DNA of 38,676 bases from an uncultured bacterium. GTDB lineage: Bacteria; Bacillota; Clostridia; Lachnospirales; Lachnospiraceae. A program made the position numbers and the translations under genes. The notes under the pieces were generated by a model. That model did no database searches, was not told where the DNA came from, and saw only the letters and a list, made by a program, of their open reading frames with translations. Shown piece by piece: positions 12,437-38,676 of the stretch (position 1 is its first letter; every line of letters starts with the position of its first letter). Location: contig CALZQA010000016.1 in NCBI GenBank assembly GCA_945828315.1, positions 1-38,676 of the forward strand, written 5' to 3'.

Positions 12437-12449
12437 AAGGGCGATAAAA

Positions 12450-13238
12450 ATGGAACAGTACAGATTACAGGCGATAGACCTGACAAAAGTATATGAGGAT
12501 GGAAAAAAAGGACTGGTGACCGCGATCGACCGTGTGAACCTTGAAGTGAAGGACGGAGAATTTGTCATGATCGTCGGCCCTTCCGGATGCGGAAAGACGA
12601 CACTGATCAATATTCTGGGTGGACTCAATACAGCGACTTCCGGAGAGGTACTTTTGGACGGAAAGCCGGTACAGGGACCGGGCGCAGACCGTGGCATGGT
12701 ATTTCAGGGGTACAGTCTCTTTCCGTGGCTTACCGTACAAAAAAACGTGGAATTTGGTCTGAAAATGAAAAAGATGCCGAAAGCACAGCGTGCCGAACAG
12801 GCAAAGAAATTTATCGATCTGGTTGGTCTGACCGGATTTGAGAACGCACTGCCGAAGCAGTTGTCCGGCGGCATGAAACAGCGTGTGGCGATCGCCCGCA
12901 CACTTGCTAACGAGCCGGAGATCCTTTTGATGGATGAGCCCTTCGGAGCACTGGACGCACAGACGAGAGTTGTCATGCAGGAGCTTTTGGCGGACATCAG
13001 TAAAAAGACGAAAACGACCATTTTATTTATCACCCATGACATTGACGAGGCAGTGCTGCTGGGCGACCGCATTTATGTCATGAGCCGCAGACCGGGTACG
13101 ATCCGAGAGGTATTGGATGTCAACATTCCCGGTGTGCGCAGCCACGAGAGTCTGGTGTTGCCGGAATTTCTGGCGACAAAGAAGAAGATCATGGACATGC
13201 TTTGGCAGGAGAGTATGGACGCGGCGATGGATCAGTGA
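12450..13238 (+). CDS. ABC transporter ATPase (SsuB/TauB-type)
   Basis: This is a 262-residue nucleotide-binding subunit. It has Walker A GPSGCGKTT (43-51), a Q-loop in MVFQGYSLFPWLTV, the signature LSGGMKQR, Walker B ILLMDEPFGALDA, and the switch His in FITHDIDEA. The FPWLTV motif and general length match the SsuB/TauB/NrtD group. It starts 13 bases after the permease stop, with AGAAGGG as ribosome site. It would power the importer formed with the permease at 11639 and the lipoprotein at 13355. Confidence 0.93.
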   Translation: MEQYRLQAIDLTKVYEDGKKGLVTAIDRVNLEVKDGEFVMIVGPSGCGKTTLINILGGLNTATSGEVLLDGKPVQGPGADRGMVFQGYSLFPWLTVQKNVEFGLKMKKMPKAQRAEQAKKFIDLVGLTGFENALPKQLSGGMKQRVAIARTLANEPEILLMDEPFGALDAQTRVVMQELLADISKKTKTTILFITHDIDEAVLLGDRIYVMSRRPGTIREVLDVNIPGVRSHESLVLPEFLATKKKIMDMLWQESMDAAMDQ

Positions 13239-13253
13239 TCAATTTGTATTTTA

Positions 13254-13314
13254 AGAAGCATACGATTTTCGCGCTGCATCTGGCGTGCGAAAGCTCGAAA
13301 ATCGCATTGCTTCT
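13254..13314 (+). other. Long imperfect hairpin between ATPase and binding-protein genes
   Basis: AGAAGCA (13254-13260) pairs with TGCTTCT (13308-13314), and CGATTTTCG (13263-13271) with CGAAAATCG (13296-13304), giving a two-part stem with a small internal loop. No T run follows. Its place just before the binding-protein gene fits an mRNA-stabilising or processing element that raises binding-protein expression; this is inference. Confidence 0.6.
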
Positions 13315-13354
13315 CGATAATAAATGAATGATACATAGAAAAGAGGAGAAACTT

Positions 13355-14347
13355 ATGAAAAAGAAATTATCATTATTATTAGCAGCACTTTTAGTTGCCG
13401 GTACAGTGTTTACCGGCTGCGGCAGCAAGAAGGCGGAGGCAGACGCGGACGGTCTGACTGAGGTGACGATGGCATTCTGCACATTTACCGGTTATTCACC
13501 GATGTTTATCGCACAGGAGCAGGGCTATTTCGAGGATGCAGGTATTAAGATGGACATTCAGGTCATCGAGGATGAGTCCACCTACGCAAGTCTGATCACA
13601 AAGGGCGATGTACAGTTTTTGGCGACCGCACAGGACCCGAATATCAAGATGTTCGCAAACGGTGCAACAAGTAAGTATGTACTCACGATGGATCAGTCAT
13701 TTGGTGCGGACGGCCTGGTGGCAACCGCAGATATCAAGACATTGGATGATCTGAAAGGAAAATCCGTTGCACTTGATAAATCTGCATCTTCCTATTATTT
13801 CTTCCTGAAGGCACTGGAGGCCGGATCTTCCCTGACAGAGGACGATATCGATGTGCAGGATATGGGAGATACGACGGAGGCAGGTGTAGCCTTTATCGGC
13901 GGACAGGTGGATGCGGCGATCATGTGGGAGCCGGAGTTATCTGATGCATTGACAGAAGTGGCAGGAGCGCATACAATTGTAACGAGCGCGGACTATCCCG
14001 ATGCGATCTCCGACAGTCTGGTCGTCAATGCAAAGTTTGCCGAGGAGCATCCCGAGATCGTGGATGCAGTTGCAGAAGCATGGTACAAGGCAGTTGATTT
14101 TTATAACTCAAATGCGGAAGAAGCCTATAAAAATATGGCGAGCGGTTTTGAGGAGGTCACGGCGGAGGATATCGAGAGTGACGCTGCAGGCTTGCACTTT
14201 TTAGGAAAGGAAGAAAATGAGGCGCTGCTCGTTGAGGGATCAGAGGGCAACATTTTTGATCTGTGCAAGGAGATGGCAGACTTTTGGATGAGTAAAGGCG
14301 AGTGCAAGACGGATGAATTAGATGATTACTTTACTCTGGTAAAATAG
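13355..14347 (+). CDS. ABC transporter substrate-binding lipoprotein (NMT1/SsuA-like)
   Basis: This is a 330-residue extracellular solute-binding protein. The start at ATG 13355 has AGAGGAGAA just before it; an earlier in-frame ATG at 13328 lacks a site. The signal peptide has a lipobox ending at C22 (VFTGC). The mature part is a periplasmic-binding-protein-like type II fold of the NMT1/SsuA/ThiY group, with FTGYSPMFIAQEQGYFEDAGI and GGQVDAAIMWEPE. Third in the importer operon. The ligand is unknown: a sulfonate, a thiamine-precursor pyrimidine or another small molecule are all possible. Its stop overlaps the GTG start of the next gene. Confidence 0.92.
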   Translation: MKKKLSLLLAALLVAGTVFTGCGSKKAEADADGLTEVTMAFCTFTGYSPMFIAQEQGYFEDAGIKMDIQVIEDESTYASLITKGDVQFLATAQDPNIKMFANGATSKYVLTMDQSFGADGLVATADIKTLDDLKGKSVALDKSASSYYFFLKALEAGSSLTEDDIDVQDMGDTTEAGVAFIGGQVDAAIMWEPELSDALTEVAGAHTIVTSADYPDAISDSLVVNAKFAEEHPEIVDAVAEAWYKAVDFYNSNAEEAYKNMASGFEEVTAEDIESDAAGLHFLGKEENEALLVEGSEGNIFDLCKEMADFWMSKGECKTDELDDYFTLVK

Positions 14348-25671: not shown

Positions 25672-25740
25672 GCAGGAAGCTGACGGGATGTATGTACGAT
25701 CGTGTACGCGGGAAGAATTTGATCGTTGGAGGAAACGTGT

Positions 25741-26526
25741 ATGTTGACACAATTTTCGAGAACAGAATTATTGCTGGGAAAGGACGCGATGGATCGTCTG
25801 GCAGGTGCCAGAGTAGCGGTGTTTGGCATCGGTGGTGTCGGTGGATATGTCTGTGAGGCACTGGTGCGAAGCGGTGTAGGTGCCTTTGACCTGATCGATG
25901 ATGACAAGGTCTGCCTGACAAATCTCAACCGGCAGATCATCGCCACGAGAAAGACAGTGGGGAAATATAAGACAGAAGTGATGAAGGAGCGGATCCTGGA
26001 TATCAATCCTGATGCGGATGTGCGGATCCACAACTGCTTCTTTCTGCCGGAAAATGCGGATGAATTCCCCTTTGAAGAATATGACTATGTGGTGGATGCA
26101 GTGGATACGGTGACGGCGAAGATCGCGCTGGTCATGAAAGCACAGGAGACCGGTGTACCGATCATCAGCAGCATGGGAGCAGGAAATAAGCTGGACGGCA
26201 GTCAGTTTCGGGTGGCGGATATTTATAAGACAAAGGTCTGTCCGCTGGCAAAGGTCATGCGCAGGGAATTAAAAAAGCGCGGGGTGAAAAAACTGAAGGT
26301 CGTCTATTCTGAAGAACAGCCCACCAGACCGGTGGAAGATATGGCCAACAGCTGCCGGACAAACTGCATCTGTCCGCCCGGAGCACAGCACAAGTGCACG
26401 GAGCGGCGTGACATTCCGGGAAGTGTCGCATTTGTTCCGTCTGTGGCGGGGCTGATCATCGCCGGGGAAGTTGTGAAGGATCTGTGTAAAAATACGAATG
26501 GTGCAGATGGTCAGCACAGCTGCTGA
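25741..26526 (+). CDS. tcdA: tRNA threonylcarbamoyladenosine dehydratase (TcdA/CsdL)
   Basis: This is a 261-residue E1-like ThiF-family enzyme started at ATG 25741, eight bases after GGAGG. It has the nucleotide motif GIGGVGGYVCEALVRSG, the IDDDKV segment with RQI, DAVDTV, and the C-terminal SVAFVPSVAGLIIAGEVV. The NSCRTNC and GAQHKC cysteines may bind metal. TcdA uses ATP to cyclise t6A to ct6A at tRNA position 37. The alternative, a sulfur-carrier adenylyltransferase, is less likely because no ThiS/MoaD partner is adjacent. Next to another tRNA-modification gene. Confidence 0.85.
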   Translation: MLTQFSRTELLLGKDAMDRLAGARVAVFGIGGVGGYVCEALVRSGVGAFDLIDDDKVCLTNLNRQIIATRKTVGKYKTEVMKERILDINPDADVRIHNCFFLPENADEFPFEEYDYVVDAVDTVTAKIALVMKAQETGVPIISSMGAGNKLDGSQFRVADIYKTKVCPLAKVMRRELKKRGVKKLKVVYSEEQPTRPVEDMANSCRTNCICPPGAQHKCTERRDIPGSVAFVPSVAGLIIAGEVVKDLCKNTNGADGQHSC

Positions 26527-26564
26527 TATGTGAAACCTTATTGTCAGAAACAAGGCAGGTAAAG

Positions 26565-27707
26565 ATGAATATTACGATCAATCAATTAAAAGATTTAAAT
26601 AAAAGCGATTACCAGATCATCGACATCCGTGACGAGATCGAGATTTCTCACGGAGCCATCCCGGGCGCGGTGGCGCTGCGGCCGGAGGAGATTGAGTCAA
26701 GTGAAAAAGCAGACCGCTCCAAAAAGCTTGTGATCTGCTGCAGCAGAGGCAAAAACAGTGTGGAAGTGGCGGAAAACCTGAGAGAAAAAGGGTATGACGC
26801 ATGCAGTCTCGAGGGCGGATATGCGGCGTGGCTTCTGGATTATTTTCAGGAACAGGAGCAGAGCGAAGATGAAGAGTTCGCAAAAAATGTGGAGCTGAGT
26901 CTGCGGAAGAAGTTCAAGAAAAAGATCTGGTCAAAATTCACAAAGGCGATCAACACTTATGAGCTGGTCAAGCCGGGTGATCGGATCGCAGTGTGCATTT
27001 CCGGCGGAAAAGATTCCATGCTCATGGCAAAATGCTTTCAGGAATTGAAGCTGCACAATAAATTTGATTTTGAAGTGAAGTTTCTTGTGATGGATCCGGG
27101 TTACAGTCCGGCAAACCGCCGGGTGATCGAGGAAAATGCGAGAAGGCTCCACATCCCGATCACGATCTTTGAGTCCGACATTTTTGAGAGTGTCTACAAT
27201 ATTGAGAAAAATCCCTGCTATCTGTGTGCCAGAATGCGCAGAGGACATCTGTACCATTATGCACAGGAGCTTGGCTGCAACAAGATCGCGCTGGGTCATC
27301 ACTACGATGATGTGATCGAGACGATCCTGATGGGCATGCTTTACGGTGCGCAGATCCAGTCCATGATGCCGAAGCTGCACAGTACTAATTTCGAGGGAAT
27401 GGAACTGATCCGCCCACTGTATCTGGTAAGGGAGGACGATATCAAAGCATGGCGGGACTACAACGGACTTCGTTTTATCCAGTGCGCCTGCAAGTTCACG
27501 GACACATGCACGACCTGTAATAATGAGGAAAACCGTTCCAAGCGGATGGAGATCAAGGAGCTGATCCGGACGCTGAAAGAGGTCAATCCTTATGTGGAGG
27601 GTAATATTTTTAAGAGTGTGGAAAATGTAAATCTGGACACGATGATCTGCTATAAAACAGGCGGAGAAAAGCATCATTTTTTGGAGACTTATGATAATAT
27701 GGAATAG
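26565..27707 (+). CDS. Rhodanese domain fused to TtcA-like tRNA thiolation ATPase
   Basis: This encodes 380 residues from ATG 26565. Residues 1-95 form a rhodanese domain (IIDIRDEIE, then VICCSRGKNS with the sulfur-carrying cysteine). From about 120 on comes an N-type ATP pyrophosphatase with the PP-loop SGGKDS, ALGHHYDDVIETILMG, and the cysteine pairs CYLCARMRR and CTTC typical of TtcA enzymes, which thiolate C32 of tRNA and can carry an Fe-S cluster. The fusion would let a persulfide sulfur pass directly to the thiolase. It sits behind tcdA, in a sulfur-rich neighbourhood. Target tRNA base is inferred from family only. Confidence 0.85.
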   Translation: MNITINQLKDLNKSDYQIIDIRDEIEISHGAIPGAVALRPEEIESSEKADRSKKLVICCSRGKNSVEVAENLREKGYDACSLEGGYAAWLLDYFQEQEQSEDEEFAKNVELSLRKKFKKKIWSKFTKAINTYELVKPGDRIAVCISGGKDSMLMAKCFQELKLHNKFDFEVKFLVMDPGYSPANRRVIEENARRLHIPITIFESDIFESVYNIEKNPCYLCARMRRGHLYHYAQELGCNKIALGHHYDDVIETILMGMLYGAQIQSMMPKLHSTNFEGMELIRPLYLVREDDIKAWRDYNGLRFIQCACKFTDTCTTCNNEENRSKRMEIKELIRTLKEVNPYVEGNIFKSVENVNLDTMICYKTGGEKHHFLETYDNME

Positions 27708-27868: not shown

Positions 27869-29074
27869 ATGGACGAAAAACGCGAACGGAACCTTGATTT
27901 TGACAAAATTGTCGATCGGAAAAACACCGGTTGTCTGAAATATGATTTTGCAAAGCAGCGCGGAATGCCGGAGGATGTGCTGCCTTTGTGGGTGGCGGAT
28001 ATGGATTTTGAGACGTCGTCTTATATACAGGATGCGCTCACTGAGCGGATCAAACACGGAATCTTTGGATACAGTGAGCCCACAGATTCCTACTTTGAGA
28101 GTGTCAGTGGATGGATGCGTGAACGGCATCACTGGGAGGTAAAACGGCAGTGGCTGGTCAACACACCGGGTGTTGTATTTGCGCTGGCAACAGCGGTCAA
28201 GGCATACACAGAGCCGGGAGATGCAGTGTTGATCCAGCAACCGGTCTACTATCCGTTTTCAGAGGTCATCAAGGATGCCGGCAGACGCGTCGTGAGCAAT
28301 ACGCTGTATCTGGGTGACGACAACCGCTATCATATTGACTTTGATGATTTTGAAAAGAAGATCATCGATGAGCAGGTGAAATTGTTTCTGTTGTGCAGCC
28401 CTCACAACCCGGTTGCGCGTGTCTGGACGAGGGAGGAACTGGAACAGCTCGGCGATATCTGCCTGAAGCATGGCGTTCTTGTTGTGGCAGATGAGATCCA
28501 CAATGATTTTGTTTTCAAGGGTGAGCACACGGTGTTTGCCACTGTGAAAAAGGAGTTTGAGGACAACTGTATCATCTGCACGGCACCAAGTAAGACGTTC
28601 AATCTTGCCAGTATGCTAAACTCCAATATTTTTATACCCAACCAGCAGCTGCGCCGGAAATTCAGAAAAGAAGTAAATGCAGTGGGTCTGAGTCAGATTG
28701 GTGTGCTGGGCTTTGTGGCTTGCGAGGCTGCTTACCGGGATGGCGGCGAATGGTATGAGGCGATGATGCGTTATGTGGCTGATAACATTGCATTTACAAA
28801 GAAATATGTAGAGGAAAATCTGCCCGGCGTACATATGACAGACCATGAGGGCACGTATCTCGTCTGGCTGGATTTCCGTGAGATCGGACTAAGTGCAGAT
28901 GAATTGGACGACTTGATCATCCATAAGGCGAAACTGTGGCTGGACAGCGGAAAGATCTTTGGCGAGAGCGGAAACTGTTTCCAGCGGATCAATGTGGCAT
29001 GTCCCCGTGCGACACTGCTCGATGCGCTGGAGCGGATCCGGAAAGCGTTGCAGGAAAATGAAGGCTGTGCCTAA
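27869..29074 (+). CDS. patB: MalY/PatB family PLP-dependent C-S lyase
   Basis: This is a 401-residue fold-type I aminotransferase-like enzyme. It has PLWVADMDFE near the N-terminus, FLLCSPHNPVARVW, VVADEIHNDFVF, and APSKTFNLAS with the PLP lysine K242; all are typical of MalY/PatB cystathionine beta-lyases, which release thiol or sulfide, pyruvate and ammonia from cystathionine or cysteine S-conjugates. GAGGTG precedes the ATG. No CCTA..TAGG box was seen in front of it, so it may not be in the Rrf2 set. It fits the sulfur theme of the right half of the window. Confidence 0.88.
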   Translation: MDEKRERNLDFDKIVDRKNTGCLKYDFAKQRGMPEDVLPLWVADMDFETSSYIQDALTERIKHGIFGYSEPTDSYFESVSGWMRERHHWEVKRQWLVNTPGVVFALATAVKAYTEPGDAVLIQQPVYYPFSEVIKDAGRRVVSNTLYLGDDNRYHIDFDDFEKKIIDEQVKLFLLCSPHNPVARVWTREELEQLGDICLKHGVLVVADEIHNDFVFKGEHTVFATVKKEFEDNCIICTAPSKTFNLASMLNSNIFIPNQQLRRKFRKEVNAVGLSQIGVLGFVACEAAYRDGGEWYEAMMRYVADNIAFTKKYVEENLPGVHMTDHEGTYLVWLDFREIGLSADELDDLIIHKAKLWLDSGKIFGESGNCFQRINVACPRATLLDALERIRKALQENEGCA

Positions 29075-29570: not shown

Positions 29571-29594
29571 ACAAAATAAAGAGGAGGCATGAGA

Positions 29595-30791
29595 ATGGCG
29601 AAGAAAGAGAACAAGTATAAAGGTTATGATATCACCACACAGGCAATCCATACCGGCACAGATTATGATCTGGAGACAGGTGCTGTCCGGCGTCCGCTTC
29701 ATATGGCAAACAGTTTCAAACTGCCGGATGACTTATCGCAGGTCAATTATTCTTCCACAGATCTTCTGATGTATGCAAGAAACGGAAATCCGAATCAACA
29801 CTGGCTGGAGGAAAAGATTGCCGCACTGCACGATGCGGATGATGCGATCGTGCTGGCCAGCGGAGTTGCGGCGCTGCATGCACTGTTCTGGACGCTTCTG
29901 GAATCAGGAGACAGGGTGGTGTATCCAAATGTCAGTTATATGGCTGTATACAGAATGTTCCATGAGCTGTTTAACCGTAAATTCAAAGTGGAAACAGTCA
30001 TGGTTGATATGACAGACCTTGAAGCCGTGAAGAAAGCAATTACACCGGGTACAAAACTGGTTCATATCGAAACTCCGGACAATCCTACAAACGGAATTAC
30101 GGACATTGCTGCGATTGCAGAGATCGCACATCAAAACGGAGCGGTGTTGTCTGTGGATAACACATTCGCTTCCCCTTTCAACCAGAAGCCGTTGGAACTG
30201 GGGGCTGATTTTGTGATCGAAGCCATTACAAAATACATCAATGGACACGGGGATGCACAGGGTGGGGCGATCATTTCCAATGATCTGGAGACGATGGACC
30301 GCATCCGGTATGAGGCACAGGTAAATGTGGGATCTGTGATCAGTCCCTTTAATGCATGGCAGATTTTTCGCGGTTCAGTTACGTTTCCGCTTCGCATGGA
30401 ACGGATCAACCGATCTGCGCAAAAGATCGCCGAATGGCTGGAGAAAAGGGAGAATGTCACGTTTGTATCATATCCGGGACTTGCCAGTCATCCGGGTCAT
30501 GAGACAGCGGTAAAACAGATGAAAAACGGCTATGGAGGAGTGATCTCCTTCGGATTGCATACAGATGATAAAACAGTGGAACGTTTCTGTGCAGCCCTGA
30601 AGGTAGTGACCTTTGCAGTTTCTCTCGGACATGATGAGAGTTTGATTTTTCCGCAGCCCAGCTATGATGAGCGGATCCATCTCTATCCGGAAAGGTTTCG
30701 GAAAGGCTTTATCCGTTTCAGTGTGGGGCTGGAAGATCCGGAGGATATTATCCGGGATATTGATCAGGCACTGAAAAGTGTAGGACTGTAA
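29595..30791 (+). CDS. Cys/Met metabolism PLP-dependent enzyme (gamma-lyase or gamma-synthase-like)
   Basis: This encodes 398 residues from ATG 29595, seven bases after GAGGAGG; ATG 29589 is too close to that site. Fold-type I features: YARNGNP (Y60, R62), the PLP-stacking region PNVSYMAVYRMF, LSVDNTFASPF, and AITKYINGHGDAQGG with Schiff-base lysine K213. Length suits cystathionine gamma-synthase, cystathionine gamma-lyase or methionine gamma-lyase. The usual LYGGT or LYGCT after the stacking Tyr reads SYMAV here, so specificity is uncertain. It has its own promoter inside a dyad shared with the downstream cysteine operon, which suggests that it works with that operon, perhaps in trans-sulfuration or release of sulfide. 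Confidence 0.85.
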   Translation: MAKKENKYKGYDITTQAIHTGTDYDLETGAVRRPLHMANSFKLPDDLSQVNYSSTDLLMYARNGNPNQHWLEEKIAALHDADDAIVLASGVAALHALFWTLLESGDRVVYPNVSYMAVYRMFHELFNRKFKVETVMVDMTDLEAVKKAITPGTKLVHIETPDNPTNGITDIAAIAEIAHQNGAVLSVDNTFASPFNQKPLELGADFVIEAITKYINGHGDAQGGAIISNDLETMDRIRYEAQVNVGSVISPFNAWQIFRGSVTFPLRMERINRSAQKIAEWLEKRENVTFVSYPGLASHPGHETAVKQMKNGYGGVISFGLHTDDKTVERFCAALKVVTFAVSLGHDESLIFPQPSYDERIHLYPERFRKGFIRFSVGLEDPEDIIRDIDQALKSVGL

Positions 30792-30888: not shown

Positions 30889-30931
30889 ATACCCATTGAC
30901 ATCTCAGATGTCGATGGGTATAATTGTCAAC
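30889..30931 (+). promoter_or_regulatory. Consensus promoter inside a 33-bp dyad, for the tRNA-like element and cysteine operon
   Basis: TTGACA (30896-30901), 17 bases, TATAAT (30919-30924): a perfect sigma-A consensus. The dyad is ATACCCAT (30889-30896), N17, ATGGGTAT (30914-30921), extended inside by GACATC/GATGTC. TTGTCAAC follows at 30924-30931. Such a strong promoter is likely to be held down by a repressor. Confidence 0.85.
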
Positions 30932-30946
30932 ATGAATCACACAAAA

Positions 30947-30963
30947 CCTATTTGAAAAGTAGG
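30947..30963 (+). promoter_or_regulatory. Rrf2/CymR-like operator in the leader
   Basis: CCTA (30947-30950), nine bases, TAGG (30960-30963), within AACCTATTTGAAAAGTAGG. It is about 15 bases downstream of the predicted transcription start, the same placement as the boxes of the rrf2 gene and the second metY. Confidence 0.65.
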
Positions 30964-30974
30964 AAAACAAAAAG

Positions 30975-31044
30975 GATGTTGTAGCCGCAGGAATGGCATA
31001 GGTTTGCAAAACCGAAGTTGGTGGTTCGAGTCCGCCCGGCATCA
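30975..31044 (+). tRNA. tRNA-Cys(GCA)-like gene or element, atypical
   Basis: A 70-base cloverleaf can be drawn. The acceptor is 30975-30981 with 31037-31043 (7 bp, two G-U). The D arm is GCCG/TGGC around 30984-30997, with a short loop containing GG. The anticodon arm is 30999-31015 with loop TTGCAAA (anticodon GCA at 31006-31008, Cys). A four-base variable loop follows, then a T arm of GGTGG/CCGCC with canonical loop TTCGAGT. Odd points: an A-G mismatch in the anticodon stem (31000 with 31014), C instead of A at D-loop position 14, discriminator A at 31044 where bacterial tRNA-Cys normally has U73, and no encoded CCA. It may be a functional variant, a regulatory tRNA mimic or a decayed copy. 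Confidence 0.6.
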
Positions 31045-31046
31045 TT

Positions 31047-31085
31047 TCTATGGATCCCCATTCGTGATAAGGGGGAATTCATAGA
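31047..31085 (+). other. Strong hairpin between tRNA-like element and first operon gene
   Basis: TCTATG (31047-31052) pairs with CATAGA (31080-31085), and TCCCC with GGGGA further in, giving about 13 pairs with one or two bulges. No T run follows, so it is not a classical terminator. It may protect the 5' end of the mRNA after release of the tRNA-like part, or act in control. Confidence 0.7.
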
Positions 31086-31112: not shown

Positions 31113-32441
31113 ATGGATCAAATAGAAAAAAAAATAGTCAGACTGGTCGATGAGCATCGTGATGAAATCGTAGCATTTGGACGTGATATATATACGCATG
31201 CGGAGTTGGGCTACAAAGAGTTTCGTACCAGTGAAAAATTCAATAGCTTTATAAAAGATAAGGTTTCCGGGTTGCAGACAGGAATCGCAATTACTGGAAC
31301 AAAAGCTTATATCAATGAAGATAAAAAAGATAATTTTTCCCTTGCATTGATTGGAGAACTCGATGCGCTGCGGATTCCTAATCACAAATATGCAAATCCG
31401 GAAACACAGGGTGCACATTGTTGCGGACATCATGCACAACTGACAGGCCTTGTCGGAGCAGCTTTTGCTTTAACAGATCCTGAAGTAGCAGCGGCATTGG
31501 ATGGTCAGCTGGTTTTTGTGACTACTCCGGCTGAGGAATACGGTGAACTGGAATTTAAAAACAGTCTCGTTGAGCAGGGCAAGATCCGATACGGCGGTGG
31601 TAAGTGTGAGATGATTCGAATAGGCGCGTTTGACGATATTGATGCAGCTGTTGCCCACCATATTTCTATGGATGGTATCCGGATAGGATCCGGAAGCTGT
31701 AACGGATTTGTATCAAAAGTGATCCGCATAAAAGGCAAAGGTGCTCATGCAGCAGGTGCGAAGGAGGAAGGAATCAATGCACTCTATGCGGCAAATCTTG
31801 GTCTGCAGGCGCTTGCATTTAATAAAGATACCTTTTATGAAAAGGATTGCGTGAGAGTACATCCGATCATGACAAAAGGTGGAGATCTTGTGAATGTTGT
31901 TCCGGAGGAAGCAGTGATAGAAACTCTGGTAAGAGGAAAAACATTGGAAGCGTTTGCAGATGCAGCGAGAAAGACAGACCGGTCCTTTAAAGGTGGCGCA
32001 ATTGCGCTGGGAGCAGGATATCGGATCGAGACGATGCCGGGCTATCTGCCGGGAGTAGGGCAGAATGTTCCGGAGGAAATGATAGATGTGATTACATCGG
32101 CGGCAGAAGGAAAGCCGGTGACAGTCATTCCAAAGGAAACACATGATTGCGGCTCTACAGATCTGGGAGATCTGGAACATATGATGCCAGTACTCACCTT
32201 TTATACCGGTGGTGCTTCCGGAAGTGGTTTACATGCCTCTGATTTTGATATTATCGATGAGGATGAGGCGTATGTTCTGACAGCAAAGTTTTATGCGCTG
32301 ACAGCGTATCGCCTGTTAAAAGACAATGCCAGGGTTGCAAAAAAGGTAAAAGAACAATACAGGCCGATATTTGCAAATAAGGAAGAGTATATCGATTTTA
32401 TGGAAAAGTTTTATTCAGTTGAGGAAGCAGAAATTCAATAG
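31113..32441 (+). CDS. M20 family metallo-amidohydrolase
   Basis: This is a 442-residue M20-type amidohydrolase. It has ALIGELDALRIP, the metal motif AHCCGHHAQ (C104, H106), TPAEEYGE with the Glu pair, AVAHHIS, and a C-terminal GSGLHASDF supplying a metal His. The layout resembles AbgB-like and N-acyl or N-carbamoyl amino acid hydrolases, which cleave an amide to free the amino acid. Being directly followed by an ATC-hydrolase family gene, it could act on N-carbamoyl- or N-acyl-cysteine; in Pseudomonas the L-ATC route uses just such a second hydrolase. This pairing is inference. It is first in the leader-controlled operon, behind GTAAGGA. Confidence 0.88.
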   Translation: MDQIEKKIVRLVDEHRDEIVAFGRDIYTHAELGYKEFRTSEKFNSFIKDKVSGLQTGIAITGTKAYINEDKKDNFSLALIGELDALRIPNHKYANPETQGAHCCGHHAQLTGLVGAAFALTDPEVAAALDGQLVFVTTPAEEYGELEFKNSLVEQGKIRYGGGKCEMIRIGAFDDIDAAVAHHISMDGIRIGSGSCNGFVSKVIRIKGKGAHAAGAKEEGINALYAANLGLQALAFNKDTFYEKDCVRVHPIMTKGGDLVNVVPEEAVIETLVRGKTLEAFADAARKTDRSFKGGAIALGAGYRIETMPGYLPGVGQNVPEEMIDVITSAAEGKPVTVIPKETHDCGSTDLGDLEHMMPVLTFYTGGASGSGLHASDFDIIDEDEAYVLTAKFYALTAYRLLKDNARVAKKVKEQYRPIFANKEEYIDFMEKFYSVEEAEIQ

Positions 32442-32455
32442 AAAGGAGAATAATT

Positions 32456-32989
32456 ATGGGAAAAGAGTCTTATCGGATCACAGGAACAGTCGACAGAGAG
32501 TTGATGGTTGACCAAATTCGAAAGGCGGCAAGACAGTTTGCAATGCAGTACTTCCATTTTTGTAAAACACTATATGAAAGATATGGGAAAGAGGCTGCGA
32601 AGGATATTGTGAGACAAACGGTTCATGAGTTGGCTTTGGACAGATCTGAACAGATCCGGACAATATCACTTGCCAAAGGTAAAAAAGCAGACAGTGTGTC
32701 AGATTTTATGTCGGATATTGATCTGCCCTTTGAGGGATGGATCGCAGAGTGGGGAGAAGATCATTGCCCGTATGCGGAGGTATGGCGGAAATATTTCGAT
32801 GAATATCCGTGGTTTAAAGAATTTGCTTTATTTTACTGTGATGTGATCGATACATCGACGATTGAAAACTATTCAAAATGTTTATCTCATCGTATTACGC
32901 AAAATGTTATGGTGGAAGGAACTTCTTGTGAAAGAGAATATTTTGAGAGCGATGATGTAAAGGAAGGCAGGTATACATATGGCAGCTGA
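32456..32989 (+). CDS. L-2-amino-thiazoline-4-carboxylate (ATC) hydrolase family protein
   Basis: This encodes 177 residues with the features I associate with the ATC hydrolase family: EDHCPYAEVW (H103, C104), FALFYCDVID (C128), and NYSKCLSHRITQNVMVEGTSCERE (C142, H145, C158, in pieces). Characterised members open the thiazoline ring of L-ATC to N-carbamoyl-cysteine, a step to cysteine; many clostridial members have unknown substrates. AAAGGAGAA precedes the ATG, 14 bases after the M20 gene. It overlaps the permease gene by 11 bases, so the genes are tightly co-expressed. Family call is good; substrate is not established. Confidence 0.75.
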   Translation: MGKESYRITGTVDRELMVDQIRKAARQFAMQYFHFCKTLYERYGKEAAKDIVRQTVHELALDRSEQIRTISLAKGKKADSVSDFMSDIDLPFEGWIAEWGEDHCPYAEVWRKYFDEYPWFKEFALFYCDVIDTSTIENYSKCLSHRITQNVMVEGTSCEREYFESDDVKEGRYTYGS

Positions 32990-33809
32990 GAGAAGTGAAA
33001 AACAGGTGACAAAGGAGGATACCAGACCGGCAGTAGTCGGGAAAAAGAAATTCTCGTGGATCAATGCTGTGCAGGTTATTACATTAATCGCTTTGCTGGC
33101 ATATATGCAAGTAGTCGTGGACACAGGAAGGATCAGTAAAGTATTCATCGCGAGCCCTACGATGATCGTACAGGAGGCTGTGAAGATCATAACAGACGGT
33201 ACGCTGCTGCCTCATCTGATCCTCACGCTGGAAGAGGTGCTCGTGGGATATGCACTGGCGGTGGCGGTGGGAATCATCGTGGCACTGCTCTGGACCTTAT
33301 TTCCAAAGCTGGAGGCATATATGGATGTGTTTTGTGCAGCAATCATGGCAGTGCCCAAGACAGCGATTCTTCCGTTGTTGATCCTTTGGTTCGGTATCGG
33401 ATTTAAATCTAAGGTGGTTCTGGTATTTTTGTTCTCTGTATTTCAGATTTTATATAACACTGTTACGGGAGCAAAGCAGACAAATATCAAATATTTAAAG
33501 GTTGCGAAAGTGTTTAAGGCAAACCGATTGCAGACTGTATTCCAGATTATGATTCCTTCAGCACTTCCATCTATGTTTAGTGGTTTGCGGCTTGCGGCGG
33601 CAACGGCATTGACCGGTGTCATTTTTTCAGAGATGCAGTCGGCAAAAGGCGGACTCGGATATTTATTGTATGAAGCACAGAATCTGCTCAATTCAGCAAG
33701 AATGTTTTTTATTGTCATTCTTGTAACCGTGATCTCAGTACTTTTTGTCCAGGTCATTGCACTCATTGAGTTTGCAGTCTGTCATAAATGGCAGAACAAA
33801 ATCCATTAG
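32979..33809 (+). CDS. ABC transporter permease (SsuC/TauC-type), cysteine operon
   Basis: This is a 276-residue permease with an N-terminal cytoplasmic tail (about 28 residues) and about six helices. It has the conserved loop around AKVFKANRLQTVFQIMIPSALP that docks on the ATPase. It resembles permeases of the sulfonate/taurine/pyrimidine importer group, as does the one at 11639. AGGAAGG lies before the ATG. Its overlap with the ATC-hydrolase gene suggests that the imported compound is the substrate of the two hydrolases. Ligand unknown. Confidence 0.9.
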   Translation: MAAERSEKQVTKEDTRPAVVGKKKFSWINAVQVITLIALLAYMQVVVDTGRISKVFIASPTMIVQEAVKIITDGTLLPHLILTLEEVLVGYALAVAVGIIVALLWTLFPKLEAYMDVFCAAIMAVPKTAILPLLILWFGIGFKSKVVLVFLFSVFQILYNTVTGAKQTNIKYLKVAKVFKANRLQTVFQIMIPSALPSMFSGLRLAAATALTGVIFSEMQSAKGGLGYLLYEAQNLLNSARMFFIVILVTVISVLFVQVIALIEFAVCHKWQNKIH

Positions 33810-33861
33810 CTAATGACCGGCTCAGACCGATCAAAATAAATGATTAAGAAGGAGACACATT

Positions 33862-34926
33862 ATGAAAAGAAAAGTATTATCAGTAATTTTAACATTAGCC
33901 ATAACGGCAGGGCTGCTGTCCGGATGTGGTGCTGCATCCGAGACCGGATCAGAGAATAGCGCAGGAACAGCAACAGAGGAAACTTCAGCTGATGCTTCTG
34001 AAGAAGAAACGATCACGATCAATGCCTGCCTGGCAGTCGGAATGACCGGTGCAGTAAATAATTTTGCGATTGAAAAAGGTCTTTACAAGGATCTGGGTAT
34101 AGAATTTAATAATACTCCGTGGACATCAAATGATGAAGTTCTCTCACTGATTACTCGTGGAGAGATTGATTTCGCAGATGGAGATCCTTCTTCCTTTATC
34201 CCCGGAATTGCGAATGGTGTACCTGCAAAACTGGTAGGAAATATGTGGAGATACTCCGGATGCTACTGGCTTGTAGCAAATAACGATATTGAATCAATCG
34301 CTGATCTGAAGGGAAAAACGATCGGTACAGCGGCTGCCGCAGGCGGAATGAAACTTTCTGTATTAAAGATGCTGGAATCAGAGGGACTTACAGAGGATGA
34401 TGTGGAATTAGTTGCAAACGGTGTATACCAGGGAGCCTATGCAACACTGACATCGGGAGAAGTAGACGCAACGATCATTCATAATCCGTATGCTGCATTA
34501 GCTGAGGCAGAGGGAGAAGGTCATATCCTTGGCCGGGCATGGGATTATATTCCGGATTATTATACCGGTACATTACTTGCATCCGACAAGATCATCAATG
34601 AAGATCCTGATAAGCTGCAACGAGTGATCACCGCATATTATACCGTGCATGAGCAGGTGAAAAATGAATACTTCGATGAGTTTATCAAATGGGTATCAGA
34701 GCAGATGAATGTTGATGAAGACGTGATGAGAACAGCCGTAGAATCTGAGAAGGACGTATGGCTGGATTATCCGGTGATTCCGGAAGACCGAGTGAACAAT
34801 ACAGTAGATATTCTTCATCAATACGGCTGGTTAGATGAGAATATTACCGCGGATGGTACATATGACAACACGTTTGCCATAAAGGCAGCAGAAGAATTAG
34901 GAATGGAAGATCCTTATAAAAAATAG
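33862..34926 (+). CDS. ABC substrate-binding lipoprotein, cysteine operon
   Basis: This is a 354-residue lipoprotein with signal peptide and lipobox ending at C22 (LLSGC), then a Ser/Thr/Glu-rich linker (about 25-50). The mature protein is an NMT1/SsuA-like binding protein: GMTGAVNNFAIEKGLYKDLGI, TRGEIDFADGDPSS, and TSGEVDATIIHNPYAAL. AAGAAGGAGA is the ribosome site. Gene order permease, binding protein, ATPase differs from the first importer. The binding pocket sequence is clearly unlike that of the protein at 13355, so the two importers probably take different ligands. Confidence 0.9.
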   Translation: MKRKVLSVILTLAITAGLLSGCGAASETGSENSAGTATEETSADASEEETITINACLAVGMTGAVNNFAIEKGLYKDLGIEFNNTPWTSNDEVLSLITRGEIDFADGDPSSFIPGIANGVPAKLVGNMWRYSGCYWLVANNDIESIADLKGKTIGTAAAAGGMKLSVLKMLESEGLTEDDVELVANGVYQGAYATLTSGEVDATIIHNPYAALAEAEGEGHILGRAWDYIPDYYTGTLLASDKIINEDPDKLQRVITAYYTVHEQVKNEYFDEFIKWVSEQMNVDEDVMRTAVESEKDVWLDYPVIPEDRVNNTVDILHQYGWLDENITADGTYDNTFAIKAAEELGMEDPYKK

Positions 34927-34947
34927 GAACTGATGGGGGAGAATGTA

Positions 34948-35730
34948 ATGCCAACAATAAAAGCAAAGAATATTGAAAAATATTATCAGAGTACAGACGG
35001 AGAACAGGTCCACGCATTGAAGGATATTAGTCTTACTGTTGAGGATGGTGAATTCGTAGCCATTGTAGGACCTTCCGGTTGCGGAAAGAGTACCTTTCTT
35101 GAGATTGTAGCAGGGCTTCTCCCCCACGACGGCGGAGAAGTATATCTGGACGACCAGCTGATAACTGAAACAAGTCGTGAGATCGGAGTTGTATTTCAGG
35201 ATGCCTCTCTTTTTCCGTGGCGTACGATCAAGAGAAATATTGCTTACGGAATGGAGCTCGCGAAGGTTCCAAAGGAAGAACAGGAGAAACGTCTTACACA
35301 TTATATAAAAATGATGAATTTGGAAGGATTTGAAAATAAGTACCCTGCGCAGCTTTCTGGTGGCATGAAGCAGAGAGCAGGAATTGCACGGACGCTTGCT
35401 ATGAATCCGAAAGTGATCTTAATGGATGAACCGTTTAGTGCAGTCGATCATCTGACAAGGTGTACATTGCAGGAAGAGTTGATCAAGATCCACGAGCTGG
35501 AGAAGAAGACGATTCTGTTTGTCACACATGATATCAATGAAGCAGTATTTCTTGCCGACAGAGTGATCCTTTTGAGTCCGCGTCCGTCTGTCATACAGGA
35601 AGAGTATCAGATTAAGCTTCCTTATCCGAGACACAGAGATGATGAATATTTGTCAAAAGTGGCGGCAATGATCATGGCTGATATCAGCCGGGGCAGAAAA
35701 ACGGATGAGGATATTGAGTATTTTATTTAA
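34948..35730 (+). CDS. ABC transporter ATPase, cysteine operon
   Basis: This encodes 260 residues from ATG 34948, behind GGGGGAG; an ATG at 34933 is in frame but overlaps that site. It has Walker A GPSGCGKST (41-49), a Q-loop in VVFQDASLFPWRTI, the signature LSGGMKQR, Walker B VILMDEPFSAVD, and the switch His in FVTHDINEA. It is of the same SsuB/TauB type as the ATPase at 12450. It would drive the permease at 32979. Confidence 0.92.
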   Translation: MPTIKAKNIEKYYQSTDGEQVHALKDISLTVEDGEFVAIVGPSGCGKSTFLEIVAGLLPHDGGEVYLDDQLITETSREIGVVFQDASLFPWRTIKRNIAYGMELAKVPKEEQEKRLTHYIKMMNLEGFENKYPAQLSGGMKQRAGIARTLAMNPKVILMDEPFSAVDHLTRCTLQEELIKIHELEKKTILFVTHDINEAVFLADRVILLSPRPSVIQEEYQIKLPYPRHRDDEYLSKVAAMIMADISRGRKTDEDIEYFI

Positions 35731-35747
35731 CGTACAAGGAGATTATC

Positions 35748-36632
35748 ATGGCAAATATAGATACAAGTATGGAGTATTTACCGAAAGAAGAAGTGATGGC
35801 TATCTGGAATGCTAATTTGAAGCTTACAGATGAAGATTTTCTGGCGATGGATGATGATGAATTTCGTGCCCGTGTGAGAGAGCGTTGCCATCATACCTTG
35901 GAGATTCAGGTTTATCACGCGCAGCACAGAGATCAGAAGCTTTCATCGACGCAGGCAGATTATGCCAAACGCTTATTGCGATTATGGGTTGAAAAAGGTC
36001 TTTCTACAGATCTTCCGGAATATAAGTATGTTTCGTTTTTGATTGAAACTGCTGATAAGCTGGCAGCGGGAGAACATGTAGACTTGTCGTCTTACAAACC
36101 GACACCTGTAACAAAAGAAATGGAGGATACGTTCTTTACAATCTTGAAAGAGCGTCGTTCCGTGAGGGAATTTACGGACGAAGAGGTTCCGGATGAAATA
36201 ATCGACAAGGTTTTAGATGCAGGTCTTTGGGCTGCGCACGGCTGCAATGTGCAGTCAATCAAATATGTGGTTGTTCGGGAAAAGAATGAGCCCGGACTGT
36301 TCAGGGGCAGTGATGTTCCGGGTGGTCCGGTGCATCTGGTGATCTGCCAGGATATGAGATGTTACAGAGCAAATTCTTTTACCCCGCGAAGAAATCAGCT
36401 ATTGGATGCCGGGGCTGCGGGACAGAACATTGTTCTGGCGGCTCATGCAGCGGGATTGGAGGGTGTGTGGCTGACCTTTCCCAATGAAGCATTTTGCGAC
36501 AGATTGAGGGAGAAATTCAAGCTTCCCGAATATATTCGCCTTGTGACATATGTAGATGTAGGATATGGCGCACAAACGCCGCATCCGCCTCTTCGCTGGG
36601 ATGTGAAGGATACCATTCTCGGAAGATTTTAA
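35748..36632 (+). CDS. Nitroreductase family flavoprotein with N-terminal extension
   Basis: This encodes 294 residues. From about 129 on it is a nitroreductase-type FMN domain, with ILKERRSVREFTDEEVPDE (the RRSVR phosphate contact at 136-140) and a later AGAAGQNIVLAAHAAGLEGVW. The first about 120 residues are a mostly helical, acidic extension I do not recognise. Such enzymes use FMN and NAD(P)H on varied substrates, including ring oxidations or reductions; an action on a thiazoline or thiazole ring is only a thought. AAGGAG precedes the ATG, and spacing of 17 bases keeps it in the operon. Confidence 0.82.
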   Translation: MANIDTSMEYLPKEEVMAIWNANLKLTDEDFLAMDDDEFRARVRERCHHTLEIQVYHAQHRDQKLSSTQADYAKRLLRLWVEKGLSTDLPEYKYVSFLIETADKLAAGEHVDLSSYKPTPVTKEMEDTFFTILKERRSVREFTDEEVPDEIIDKVLDAGLWAAHGCNVQSIKYVVVREKNEPGLFRGSDVPGGPVHLVICQDMRCYRANSFTPRRNQLLDAGAAGQNIVLAAHAAGLEGVWLTFPNEAFCDRLREKFKLPEYIRLVTYVDVGYGAQTPHPPLRWDVKDTILGRF

Positions 36633-36644
36633 AGGAGAGCTTTT

Positions 36645-37340
36645 ATGAATATTGTAGTCGTGGGAGGAAGCCGAGGAATCGGAAAGGCAATTGCCACGCA
36701 GCTGGCAGGAGACGGAAATCAAGTCTTAATTGTCGGGAGAAACAGAGAGACACTCGAAAATACCGTAAAAGAGATCGGGAAAAATGCTTCATTTTATCAG
36801 GCGGATATCACAAAAGAAGTGGATAGTCTTGCATTAGCGGAATATGTTAAAACTGAATTTGTCATTGATGGTCTGGTGCTTTCAGCAGCGCAGTTTCCAA
36901 GACAGGAGACGAAAAAATCCGTAATCGAGCCGGATGTTGCGGAGTTATCTTCCATTTTGGAAGCAAATGTAGTGGCCAATTATCGGTTCGTAAAATATCT
37001 GATTCCGTTATTACAAAAACGCATTCATCCACGGATCGTTATTATCGGTTCTACATCCGGAATCAGGCAGGATAAAGGTGGAGTATACGGCATCTCAAAA
37101 TGGGCGCTTGCATCCTATGCATATAACTTAAGAGATGAGTGTAAAGCTTATGGGATAGGTGTATCACTGATTAATCCGGGAGGAACTTTCACAGAGACGC
37201 GGGTTAAAAAATCCGGGGATGATCATAGTCTGTTGGAGAGTAGCGATTTTGGCATTTTGGTTTCAGCATTGTTTCGAATGTCGCCTCAGGCGGTTATGGA
37301 GCGGGTGGATATCAGACCCATTGCTGGCGACACGTATTAA
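36645..37340 (+). CDS. Short-chain dehydrogenase/reductase
   Basis: This is a 231-residue Rossmann-fold oxidoreductase. The cofactor motif is GGSRGIG at 7-13, followed by IVGRNRE, which suggests NADP(H). The catalytic Ser is in IIGSTSG, and the YxxxK motif in YGISKWALASYAYNLRDE. The C-terminus after PGGTFTETR is short. Substrate unknown. It begins 12 bases after the nitroreductase gene behind AAAGGAGAG and is the last gene of the putative cysteine operon; no terminator is seen after it, but a new promoter follows. Confidence 0.88.
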   Translation: MNIVVVGGSRGIGKAIATQLAGDGNQVLIVGRNRETLENTVKEIGKNASFYQADITKEVDSLALAEYVKTEFVIDGLVLSAAQFPRQETKKSVIEPDVAELSSILEANVVANYRFVKYLIPLLQKRIHPRIVIIGSTSGIRQDKGGVYGISKWALASYAYNLRDECKAYGIGVSLINPGGTFTETRVKKSGDDHSLLESSDFGILVSALFRMSPQAVMERVDIRPIAGDTY

Positions 37341-37358: not shown

Positions 37359-37417
37359 TTGACAATCTCACACAAATGCGGTAGATTGTTTTTATAACCT
37401 ATAAGTTTACTAGGAAT
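37359..37417 (+). promoter_or_regulatory. Promoter and Rrf2-type operator of the rrf2 gene
   Basis: TTGACA (37359-37364), 17 bases, TAGATT (37382-37387). A dyad ACAATCT (37362-37368)/AGATTGT (37383-37389) overlaps the promoter. The box CCTA (37398-37401), nine bases, TAGG (37411-37414), AAT follows just downstream of the predicted start, which suggests autoregulation. Confidence 0.7.
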
Positions 37418-37477: not shown

Positions 37478-37891
37478 ATGAAGATTTCAACAAAGGGGCG
37501 CTATGCGCTGCGTATTATGATCGATCTGGCACAACATGATGAGGGCGAGGCGATTCCGTTAAAGGAGATCTCCGAACGGCAGGGGATCACCTTGAAATAT
37601 ATGGAGCAGATCATGCCGCTTTTGACCCGTGCAGGCTATGTGCGCAGCTTCCGTGGGAACAACGGAGGATACCTGCTTTCAAAGTCACCGTCGGATTACA
37701 CGGTGGGCGACATTTTGCGCACAACAGAGGGATCACTGGCGCCGATCGCCTGTCTGGAGGATACGCCGAACCGGTGTGAGCGGCGTGAGGAGTGTAAGAC
37801 GTTAAAGTTCTGGGAAGGTCTTTGGCAGACGATCAATGACTATGTGGACGGCACAACGCTGGAACAGCTGGTAAATCAGAAAAATGAATAA
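37478..37891 (+). CDS. Rrf2 family transcriptional regulator (CymR/IscR-like)
   Basis: This is a 137-residue Rrf2 protein. The N-terminal winged helix (MKISTKGRYALRIMIDLAQH, then ISERQGITLKYMEQIMPLL) matches the DNA-binding part of CymR and IscR. The sensor region has C92, C100 and C106 (spacing CX7CX5C), close to the three cysteines that hold the Fe-S cluster in IscR, so it may bind a cluster or sense thiols; B. subtilis CymR works with CysK. CAGGAG precedes the ATG. The CCTA-N9-TAGG box in its own leader and in those of sulfur genes nearby makes it the likely regulator of the set, as repressor of cysteine and methionine genes. Confidence 0.88.
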   Translation: MKISTKGRYALRIMIDLAQHDEGEAIPLKEISERQGITLKYMEQIMPLLTRAGYVRSFRGNNGGYLLSKSPSDYTVGDILRTTEGSLAPIACLEDTPNRCERREECKTLKFWEGLWQTINDYVDGTTLEQLVNQKNE

Positions 37892-37910: not shown

Positions 37911-37946
37911 TTCCTACTTGACAGATAGGAAAATATAGGATATGAT
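37911..37946 (+). promoter_or_regulatory. Promoter of second metY with overlapping Rrf2-type box
   Basis: TTGACA (37918-37923), 17 bases, TATGAT (37941-37946). TTCCTA (37911-37916) and TAGGAA (37926-37931) form a perfect inverted repeat with the same CCTA-N9-TAGG geometry, lying over the -35. Confidence 0.75.
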
Positions 37947-37961
37947 ACATTTAACGAAAAA

Positions 37962-37978
37962 CCTATAGGAAAAGTAGG
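37962..37978 (+). promoter_or_regulatory. Second Rrf2-type box of the second metY
   Basis: CCTA (37962-37965), nine bases, TAGG (37975-37978), followed by AATA. It lies about 10 bases downstream of the predicted transcription start. Confidence 0.7.
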
Positions 37979-38033: not shown

Positions 38034-38676
38034 ATGAGCGAAAAGATTACGAGAGACCAGAGAGATTTTAAATTTGAGACATTGCAGCTGCATGTGGGCC
38101 AGGAGAGTCCTGATCCGGCGACAGATGCGAGAGCAGTGCCGATCTACCAGACATCATCTTATGTATTCCGCAATAGTGAGCATGCGGCAGCACGTTTCGG
38201 ACTGACGGATGCCGGTAATATTTACGGACGTCTGACAAACCCCACCGAGGATGTGTTTGAGAAGCGTATCGCGGCACTTGAGGGTGGTGTGGCAGCATTG
38301 GCAGTTGCCAGCGGAGCGGCAGCGATCACTTATACGATCGAGAATCTGGCACAGGCAGGCGATCACATTGTATCTGCAAAAAATATTTACGGCGGTTCTT
38401 TCAATCTGCTTCAGCATACATTACCGCAGTATGGGATCAATACGACTTTCGTAGATATTTTCAATTTAGACGAGGTAGAGGCTGCGATCCAGGACAACAC
38501 AAAGGCAGTATATATTGAGACTCTGGGTAATCCGAATTCAGATGTTGTTGATATTGAGGCGATTGCAAAGATCGCGCATGCACACAAGATCCCGCTGGTT
38601 GTGGACAACACCTTTGCAACACCTTATCTGGTGCGTCCGATCGAGTATGGCGCAGATATCGTTGTACATTCAGCAA
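38034..38676 (+). CDS. metY: O-acetylhomoserine sulfhydrylase, 3' end cut by window
   Basis: The first 214 residues are visible from ATG 38034, nine bases after AAGGAGG. It has [13 protein letters not shown] and [12 protein letters not shown] at the N-terminus, [23 protein letters not shown], the PLP-stacking [16 protein letters not shown] and [10 protein letters not shown]. All are typical of MetY, which makes homocysteine from O-acetylhomoserine and sulfide. The PLP lysine should lie just past the edge. It differs clearly from the copy at 7478, so this is a paralogue rather than a recent duplicate. Two Rrf2-type boxes in front predict tight repression when cysteine is plentiful. Confidence 0.9.

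Follow-up and report, generated by a model that had tools for sequence, protein, structure and literature searches.

In this report we describe a seven-gene module in DNA from an uncultured Lachnospiraceae bacterium (assembly GCA_945828315.1, contig CALZQA010000016.1, positions 1-38,676 of the forward strand; the whole stretch of 38,676 nucleotides is referred to as ‘the window’). The module, at 31113-37340, is very probably a sulfur-scavenging operon that is co-regulated with sulfur assimilation. Two lines of evidence together lead to this conclusion: sulfur-assimilation genes adjoin the module in the window and in nearly all of its relatives, and an operator-like palindrome is shared between them. 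A sequence-only reading of this DNA had proposed that the genes form one unit for the import and breakdown of a single compound, and that their purpose is to supply sulfur as cysteine. Linkage and the shared site now bear out both proposals, the second no longer by analogy. Organic-sulfur acquisition by anaerobic gut and rumen bacteria is poorly known, and the module described here is a defined, conserved system of seven genes, with named enzymes and with candidates for both regulator and operator, set apart from the similar pathway for L-2-aminothiazoline-4-carboxylate (L-ATC). Beyond the seven genes, the locus has a consensus promoter, the palindrome and a variant tRNA-Cys upstream, and sulfur genes on both flanks. 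The most surprising element, the family of variant tRNA-Cys genes found at sulfur operons, lies just outside the region to which the sequence-only reading was directed.

The module and its conservation

All seven open reading frames are present on the + strand, in the order and with the families that had been claimed for them; Pfam and NCBIfam assignments agree for every gene, the ATC-hydrolase match falling slightly under its cut-off. They encode, in turn, an M20D amidohydrolase (TIGR01891; 31113-32441); a divergent ATC-hydrolase-family (PF14196) protein (32456-32989); an ATP-binding cassette (ABC) permease of the SsuC/TauC type (BPD_transp_1; 32979-33809); a substrate-binding lipoprotein of the NMT1/SsuA type (33862-34926); an ABC ATPase (ABC_tran; 34933-35730); a nitroreductase-family flavin mononucleotide (FMN) enzyme whose N-terminal domain, some 125 amino acids long, is conserved (35748-36632); and a short-chain dehydrogenase, or SDR (36645-37340). 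The gaps between them are, in order, 14, -11, 52, 6, 17 and 12 nt. The cysteine and methionine content of the encoded proteins is not low.

A search with the ATC-hydrolase-family protein returned 13 loci among species genomes, and matches at E<=0.001 in 6 of 200 Lachnospiraceae genomes; of these six, one is the window's own, one (G104) has only a distant PF14196 protein, and one (G156) is counted once with locus L037. Ten of the 13 loci carry the module and, with G161 (L092), G174 (L093) and G038 (L094), make up the 13 relatives referred to below. These are mostly metagenome-assembled genomes (MAGs) of rumen or gut Lachnospiraceae, and include Anaerocolumna sp. MB42-C2 (L039), Butyrivibrio sp. 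AC2005 (L040) and one ‘Clostridiales’ MAG; two loci (L037 and L038) are near-copies of each other. The neighbourhood search that the sequence-only reading had called for thus finds the set in 13 relatives, nearly all of them Lachnospiraceae. The genes for the ATC-hydrolase-family protein, the permease and the binding protein occur in all 13; those for the M20 enzyme, the ATPase and the nitroreductase occur in 12 each (the last two partial in L094). The locus without three core genes (L093) stops at a contig end. The M20 gene may come first or follow the SDR, or the ATC-hydrolase-family gene may come last, so the genes stay grouped despite rearrangement, and this grouping is beyond chance. The SDR is found at >=57% identity in only four relatives and is therefore an accessory gene rather than a core one; the pathway step that had been assigned to it is not conserved.

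Sulfur genes and a shared candidate control site

Sulfur-assimilation genes adjoin the module in 12 of the 13 relatives, one of these (L093) having merely a CysK stub at the contig end. A PatB C-S lyase gene is near the module in 10 relatives, a cystathionine-lyase-type gene in nine, and CysK in six (as contig-end stubs in L036 and L093, and at half length in L041). The arrangements vary. In L094, PatB, cystathionine lyase, Rrf2, O-acetylhomoserine (OAH) sulfhydrylase and CysK (the last identified partly by eye) precede the module; in L035, a cysteine desulfurase and SUF-type genes, named by eye, lie between PatB and M20; and L041 and L042 have a LysR gene, also named by eye, at the locus.

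In the window, again on the + strand, the module is preceded by genes for a PatB-family C-S lyase (27869-29074; TIGR04350, 471.8 bits), whose orthologues are those beside the module in relatives, and a pyridoxal-phosphate enzyme of cysteine and methionine metabolism of the cystathionine synthase/lyase type (29589-30791; PF01053, 382.5 bits). On the other side, an OAH sulfhydrylase-type gene (38034-38676) is 87% identical to L094:3882-5189 (TIGR01326, 636.7). The end of the window overlaps the start of contig C11 by about 20 shared residues, and the sulfhydrylase gene runs on there, followed by genes for cystathionine lyase, CysK and a second Rrf2 regulator; the two contigs presumably adjoin in the genome. 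Just before PatB, two further proteins that would suit a sulfur locus were named by eye: one TcdA/MoeB-like (25726-26526), the other with rhodanese and PP-loop (tRNA thiolation-like) parts (26541-27707).

Upstream of the module, a sigma-70 promoter, TTGACA-17-TATAAT (30896-30924, + strand), matches the consensus at 12 of 12 positions, and the same promoter occurs in the homologous leader of another genome of the same genus (G587). Matches at 10 positions (37359-37387) and 11 positions (37918-37946) precede the genes for the Rrf2 regulator and OAH sulfhydrylase, respectively. Since promoter matches over the whole window number 16, versus 15.1 in shuffled sequence, weight attaches to the near-perfect matches only. 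A pattern search for the palindrome CCTA-N9-TAGG found four copies in the window, where 0.11 are expected. All four, given here on the + strand, are intergenic: one before the operon (30947-30963), one behind the Rrf2-gene promoter match (37398-37414), and two before the OAH sulfhydrylase gene, of which the first overlaps the promoter match (37913-37929) and the second lies beyond it (37962-37978). The extended form, CCTAN9TAGGAA, gives eight match lines in the whole genome: five (four sites) at the locus, two on C11 and one elsewhere. Those on C11 precede cystathionine lyase and CysK.

The candidate reader of the palindrome is the neighbouring Rrf2-family regulator (37478-37891, + strand), which probably binds it. 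Two Rrf2 regulators occur at the one locus, this one with cysteines at positions 92, 100 and 106, and L099:2560-3006 with cysteines at 95, 103 and 109; the three spaced cysteines in both suggest Fe-S or thiol sensing. CymR-type regulons, CysK among their members, are known in Firmicutes (PMC3828012, PMC2940859). The locus resembles these in having an Rrf2 regulator, palindromic sites and, as apparent targets, CysK, cystathionine lyase and an organosulfur importer. It differs in that the Rrf2 protein scores under the NCBIfam cut-offs for CymR (113.9 versus 195) and IscR (125.4 versus 207.55) and has the three spaced cysteines, and in that the targets would include the module and a tRNA.

Enzymes, import and the candidate chemistry

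The protein at 32456 scores 27.1 bits against PF14196, for which the curated Pfam cut-off is 28.1. Its relatives fall on both sides of this value, G038 (67-68% identical) at 32.3 and L045 at 30.6 above it, and L046 at 26 and L039 at 22.5 below; the family is common in Lachnospiraceae (64 of 200 genomes). When the window's branch was aligned with 31 other PF14196 members, C104, C128 and D132 were kept in 40 of 40 sequences and C158 in 39, the exception being truncated, and profile-profile comparison with other members (hhalign) gave 95.4% and an E of 1.9e-8. A cluster of three cysteines has been published for the ATC-hydrolase domain (PMC5847659). Judged by profiles and by these four invariant residues, the protein is a member of the family, as the sequence-only reading had held, and does not fall outside it; what must be added is that its branch is divergent. 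Its predicted model has a predicted local distance difference test (pLDDT) score of 88.9. In VIA-align comparisons the model is like the MopR/PoxR sensors and Bet3, with Z up to 7.6; for a mostly helical model a Z of about 7 may reflect just a common arrangement, although it agrees with the published link of this domain to V4R (PMC5847659). Foldseek with the model gave no match with E below 0.001, and a sequence search of the PDB with the family profile gave nothing real. The protein may have a metal site and catalytic activity. In L046, the homologue adjoins a URO-D family protein.

The M20 enzyme (PF01546/PF07687) scores 158.1 bits against TIGR01891, above the cut-off of 153.75, and the NCBIfam scan gave no match to the hydantoinase/carbamoylase family TIGR01879, to which we take the second enzyme of the Pseudomonas L-ATC pathway, a carbamoyl-cysteine amidohydrolase acting together with an ATC hydrolase, to belong. 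By sequence, then, it is of the acyl-amino-acid (aminoacylase) type and not of the carbamoylase type used in that pathway. It keeps C104, H106, E142, H182/H183 and H374 in 11 of 11 sequences, which are presumably metal ligands, as in the indole-3-acetic acid-amino-acid hydrolases. Among the closest relatives of known structure are Xaa-Arg dipeptidase, HmrA, YxeP and ILL2.

The binding protein (NMT1, 86.3 bits) is near SsuA/THI5-like proteins, and its lipobox cysteine, C22, is invariant in 10 sequences. It scores 90.9 against TIGR01728, the SsuA family, where the cut-off is 163.5, and the importer scores under every named cut-off. Another NMT1/SsuA-like importer, complete with permease, ATPase and binding protein, was recognized by eye at 11639-14347, elsewhere in the window. 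The nitroreductase (domain score 82.3 bits; the SDR scores 112.3 bits against adh_short) averages 82% column identity in an alignment of 11 sequences, and is more conserved than the ATC-hydrolase-family protein. Its N-terminal domain occurs in five of 200 genomes, four of them among the five that have this ATC-hydrolase branch (p 3.8e-7, uncorrected for phylogeny). Its predicted model has a pLDDT of 53. At E<=1e-40 it was found in one of 391 genomes of the class, namely the window's own.

Two other arrangements of PF14196 genes help to place the module. At L097:6566-9724, a PF14196 protein lies side by side with a PF03313 protein, which we take to be a ‘cysteine desulfidase’, and an M20 enzyme of the hydantoinase/carbamoylase type (TIGR01879, 391 bits); the set fits ATC to cysteine to sulfide, and is likely a true ATC pathway in Lachnospiraceae. 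In six genera (L078-L083), PF14196, M20 and ProC genes occur together, with scores in L078 of 217.6 bits for M20 (TIGR01891) and 278 for ProC (TIGR00112). All six come from the 30 PF14196 loci with the best scores, among which two more have ProC and one a weak M20. Thioproline is oxidized by ProC (PMC12899673), and bacteria convert it to N-formylcysteine (PMC9814826); the triad is thus a candidate route from thioproline through N-formylcysteine to cysteine. The module has in common with these clusters the same two hydrolase families and a redox enzyme that can act on five-membered rings. The clusters differ in that their M20 is about 27% identical, ProC takes the place of the nitroreductase, the importer of the module is missing, and no sulfur locus was seen.

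On the explanation that we consider the probable one overall, taking in operon, control, import and chemistry, the single sigma-70 promoter and the palindrome, to which the adjacent Rrf2 protein probably binds, would drive one transcript comprising a leader with the variant tRNA-Cys and the seven genes; no terminator match was found on the + strand between tRNA and M20. The lipoprotein, permease and ATPase would import an organic sulfur compound with a cysteine skeleton, most likely N-acylated or closed into a five-membered thiazolidine, thiazoline or thiazole ring. The nitroreductase-family enzyme, by analogy with the ProC clusters, may set the redox state of the ring, and this is the weakest step. 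Judging from their families, the ATC-hydrolase-family protein would then open a thiazoline at its C-S bond to give an N-acyl-cysteine, and the M20D enzyme would strip the acyl group to give cysteine. Finally, PatB, cystathionine lyase, CysK and OAH sulfhydrylase would pass the sulfur on to cysteine and methionine. This exact three-step chemistry is tentative, and we think it more doubtful than probable; that the substrate is some derivative of cysteine has moderate likelihood.

Several observations weigh against this picture. The eight genome-wide matches to the extended palindrome compare with 17 for a reversed control pattern, so it is not over-represented, and its evidential weight comes from clustering rather than number. 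In relatives, a strict search for CCTA-N9-TAGG gave single matches only, in L033/L093, L035, L036, L044 and L092, and binding of the site by the Rrf2 protein is an inference. The V4R/MopR/Bet3 type of fold is a ligand-binding one, and the ATC-hydrolase-family protein may be a binder and not an enzyme. Homologues of it (47-49% identity) in Clostridiaceae and Bacteroidia (L045-L047) have no other module gene in the surrounding stretch, save one weak ATPase-family match in L045, so it can evidently work outside the set. In Anaerocolumna (L039) the set is full, yet none of the tested sulfur genes occurs within 20 kb. Finally, a paralogue of the nitroreductase (55%), with the same N-terminal domain, occurs at L111:1756-6988. 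Its neighbours, labelled by eye, are an SDR, a hydrolase of the SGNH type and an importer of the Liv type, and the 7-kb contig has no sulfur gene.

The last two observations are what would be expected if the module were not concerned with sulfur, but were an operon for amide-ring catabolism that had come to lie in a sulfur locus by accident. Against this stand the shared operator-like site and the fact that, in 12 of 13 relatives, the module occurs with the same sulfur genes in varied arrangements; we regard the idea as very improbable. A second possibility, the one suggested by the sequence-only reading, is that L-ATC (or N-carbamoyl-cysteine) is imported, the ATC hydrolase opening it and M20 then removing the carbamoyl group. 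ATC arises from cyanide and cystine, and an encounter with it in the rumen is thus possible. It is a recognized cyanide metabolite (PMC11269370), and here, as in Pseudomonas, an ATC-hydrolase-family protein adjoins an M20-superfamily amidohydrolase with cysteine as the likely product. The M20D aminoacylase is not, however, of the TIGR01879 type that is paired with PF14196, and accompanied by the PF03313 protein, in L097, the one Lachnospiraceae cluster observed to resemble the Pseudomonas pathway, and the nitroreductase, more conserved than the hydrolase, would be left without a role. The operon also differs from the Pseudomonas pathway in its divergent ATC hydrolase branch, and adds to it a dedicated ABC importer, the FMN enzyme, Rrf2-type control and the tRNA leader. 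L-ATC as the substrate is therefore not supported and has low likelihood.

Somewhat less improbable, but still unlikely, is that the substrate is a mercapturate-like, N-acylated cysteine S-conjugate, or a sulfonate. M20 would then deacylate it, the PatB beta-lyase would split the C-S bond to release thiol or sulfide, the nitroreductase and SDR would process the leaving group, and the ATC-hydrolase-family protein would bind ligand. This would account for PatB beside the module in most relatives, for an importer of the SsuA/TauA type, and for YxeP among the solved relatives of M20. Ordinary methionine synthesis, however, also makes use of PatB and cystathionine lyase; the importer reaches no named cut-off; and the ATC-hydrolase fold is left without a reaction.

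A family of variant tRNA-Cys genes at sulfur operons

The head of the operon is a tRNA-Cys gene (30975-31044, + strand; ARAGORN; Rfam 45.7 bits) with a GCA anticodon, A73 and an A.G mismatch in the anticodon stem; the other tRNA-Cys of this genome has U73. Between it and the first gene lies a hairpin with no T-run (31047-31085, + strand; -16.4 kcal/mol, z -1.88), which recurs in G587 (z -1.64) and is weak. A DNA search of 80 genomes found the variant tRNA in its own genome, in G587 (97%) and in G014 (83%). A pattern search of 397 genomes of the family found it in 14, with no match to a reversed control pattern in the genomes listed, and the total stands at 15 genomes (loci: the window, L118, L119, L120-L133 and L134-L145).

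According to PMC9976931, the determinants by which bacterial cysteinyl-tRNA synthetase (CysRS) recognizes its tRNA are U73, G2-C71, C3-G70 and the GCA anticodon, with U73 and the anticodon as major ones. The window's tRNA has the anticodon but not U73. Across the family, the anticodon is GCA in 14 of 15 and ACA, which also reads a Cys codon, in one; 11 members have A at position 73, four have G and none has U; G2-C71 is missing from 14 of 15. C3-G70 is absent as well, as it is from two of 15 ordinary tRNA-Cys. The ordinary genes, 15 in 14 of the 15 genomes, all have U73 and G2-C71, are often in Asn-Glu-Cys arrays, and have none of the tested sulfur or nif references in the surrounding stretch. 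The 14 distinct variant tRNAs covary (20 cells with both sides changed; score 0.311, versus 0.176 when shuffled, 0 of 500, and <=0.087 when slid), and in all 14 one anticodon-stem pair is an A.G mismatch.

All 15 loci that carry the variant tRNA are at sulfur operons. In nine, cysK is directly before the tRNA and a NifB-like gene directly after; one has cysK before it only, one has cysK after, and two have metK after, the remaining two being the window and G587. One of the metK loci continues with an ABC importer and NifH/D/K-like genes. At L134 the operon comprises NifB-, NifX-, NifH-, CysK-, NifD- and NifK-like genes, and as NifH scores over its cut-off and NifB, NifD and NifK under theirs, we term it ‘nitrogenase-like’. 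Methylthio-alkane reductases are nitrogenase-like enzymes that act on methylated sulfur compounds (PMC12552129), and the L134 operon may encode one. A search of the tRNA loci with one pattern for a palindrome <=400 nt upstream found it in the window and L126 only. The homology between the G587 leader and that of the window begins upstream of the promoter and extends as far as the ribosome site, taking in promoter, operator, tRNA and hairpin. Behind it the genes differ, comprising an amino-acid-type importer, others named by eye, a gene resembling cysteine synthase and, after these, the same Rrf2 (97%). The leader is thus a unit whose cargo has been swapped. Other module loci have no tRNA-Cys, and the tRNA therefore tracks sulfur control rather than the module.

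Scans for T-boxes and S-adenosylmethionine riboswitches gave nothing above threshold in the window, in L035-L043 or in another ten loci, nine of which have the variant tRNA. These scans, which did not extend to whole genomes, thus revealed no T-box that could partner the tRNA. Association with the nitrogenase-like, metK and cysK operons of related genera ties to sulfur control a tRNA without the mark for charging with cysteine: either it is charged against the known identity rules, or its role is other than delivering cysteine. It is possible, if rather doubtful, that these are a new family of sulfur-regulon tRNAs, with a Cys anticodon and a selected cloverleaf, that have lost the CysRS acceptor determinants and are not charged with cysteine. 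Under sulfur starvation they might then act as a lasting ‘uncharged tRNA-Cys’ signal or, if charged by another synthetase, place a sulfur-free residue at Cys codons and so spare sulfur. We recognized no earlier description of tRNA-Cys in sulfur operons in the open-access literature. Genes for tRNA-Cys in operons with phosphoseryl-tRNA synthetase (SepRS) have been described (PMC8762117). The selC* tRNA-Cys, as PMC7609411 presents it, likewise occurs in anaerobic Firmicutes as an additional tRNA bearing a Cys anticodon, but has an 8/4 shape and keeps U73, whereas the variant family has a 7/5 shape and a purine at 73, and heads sulfur operons.

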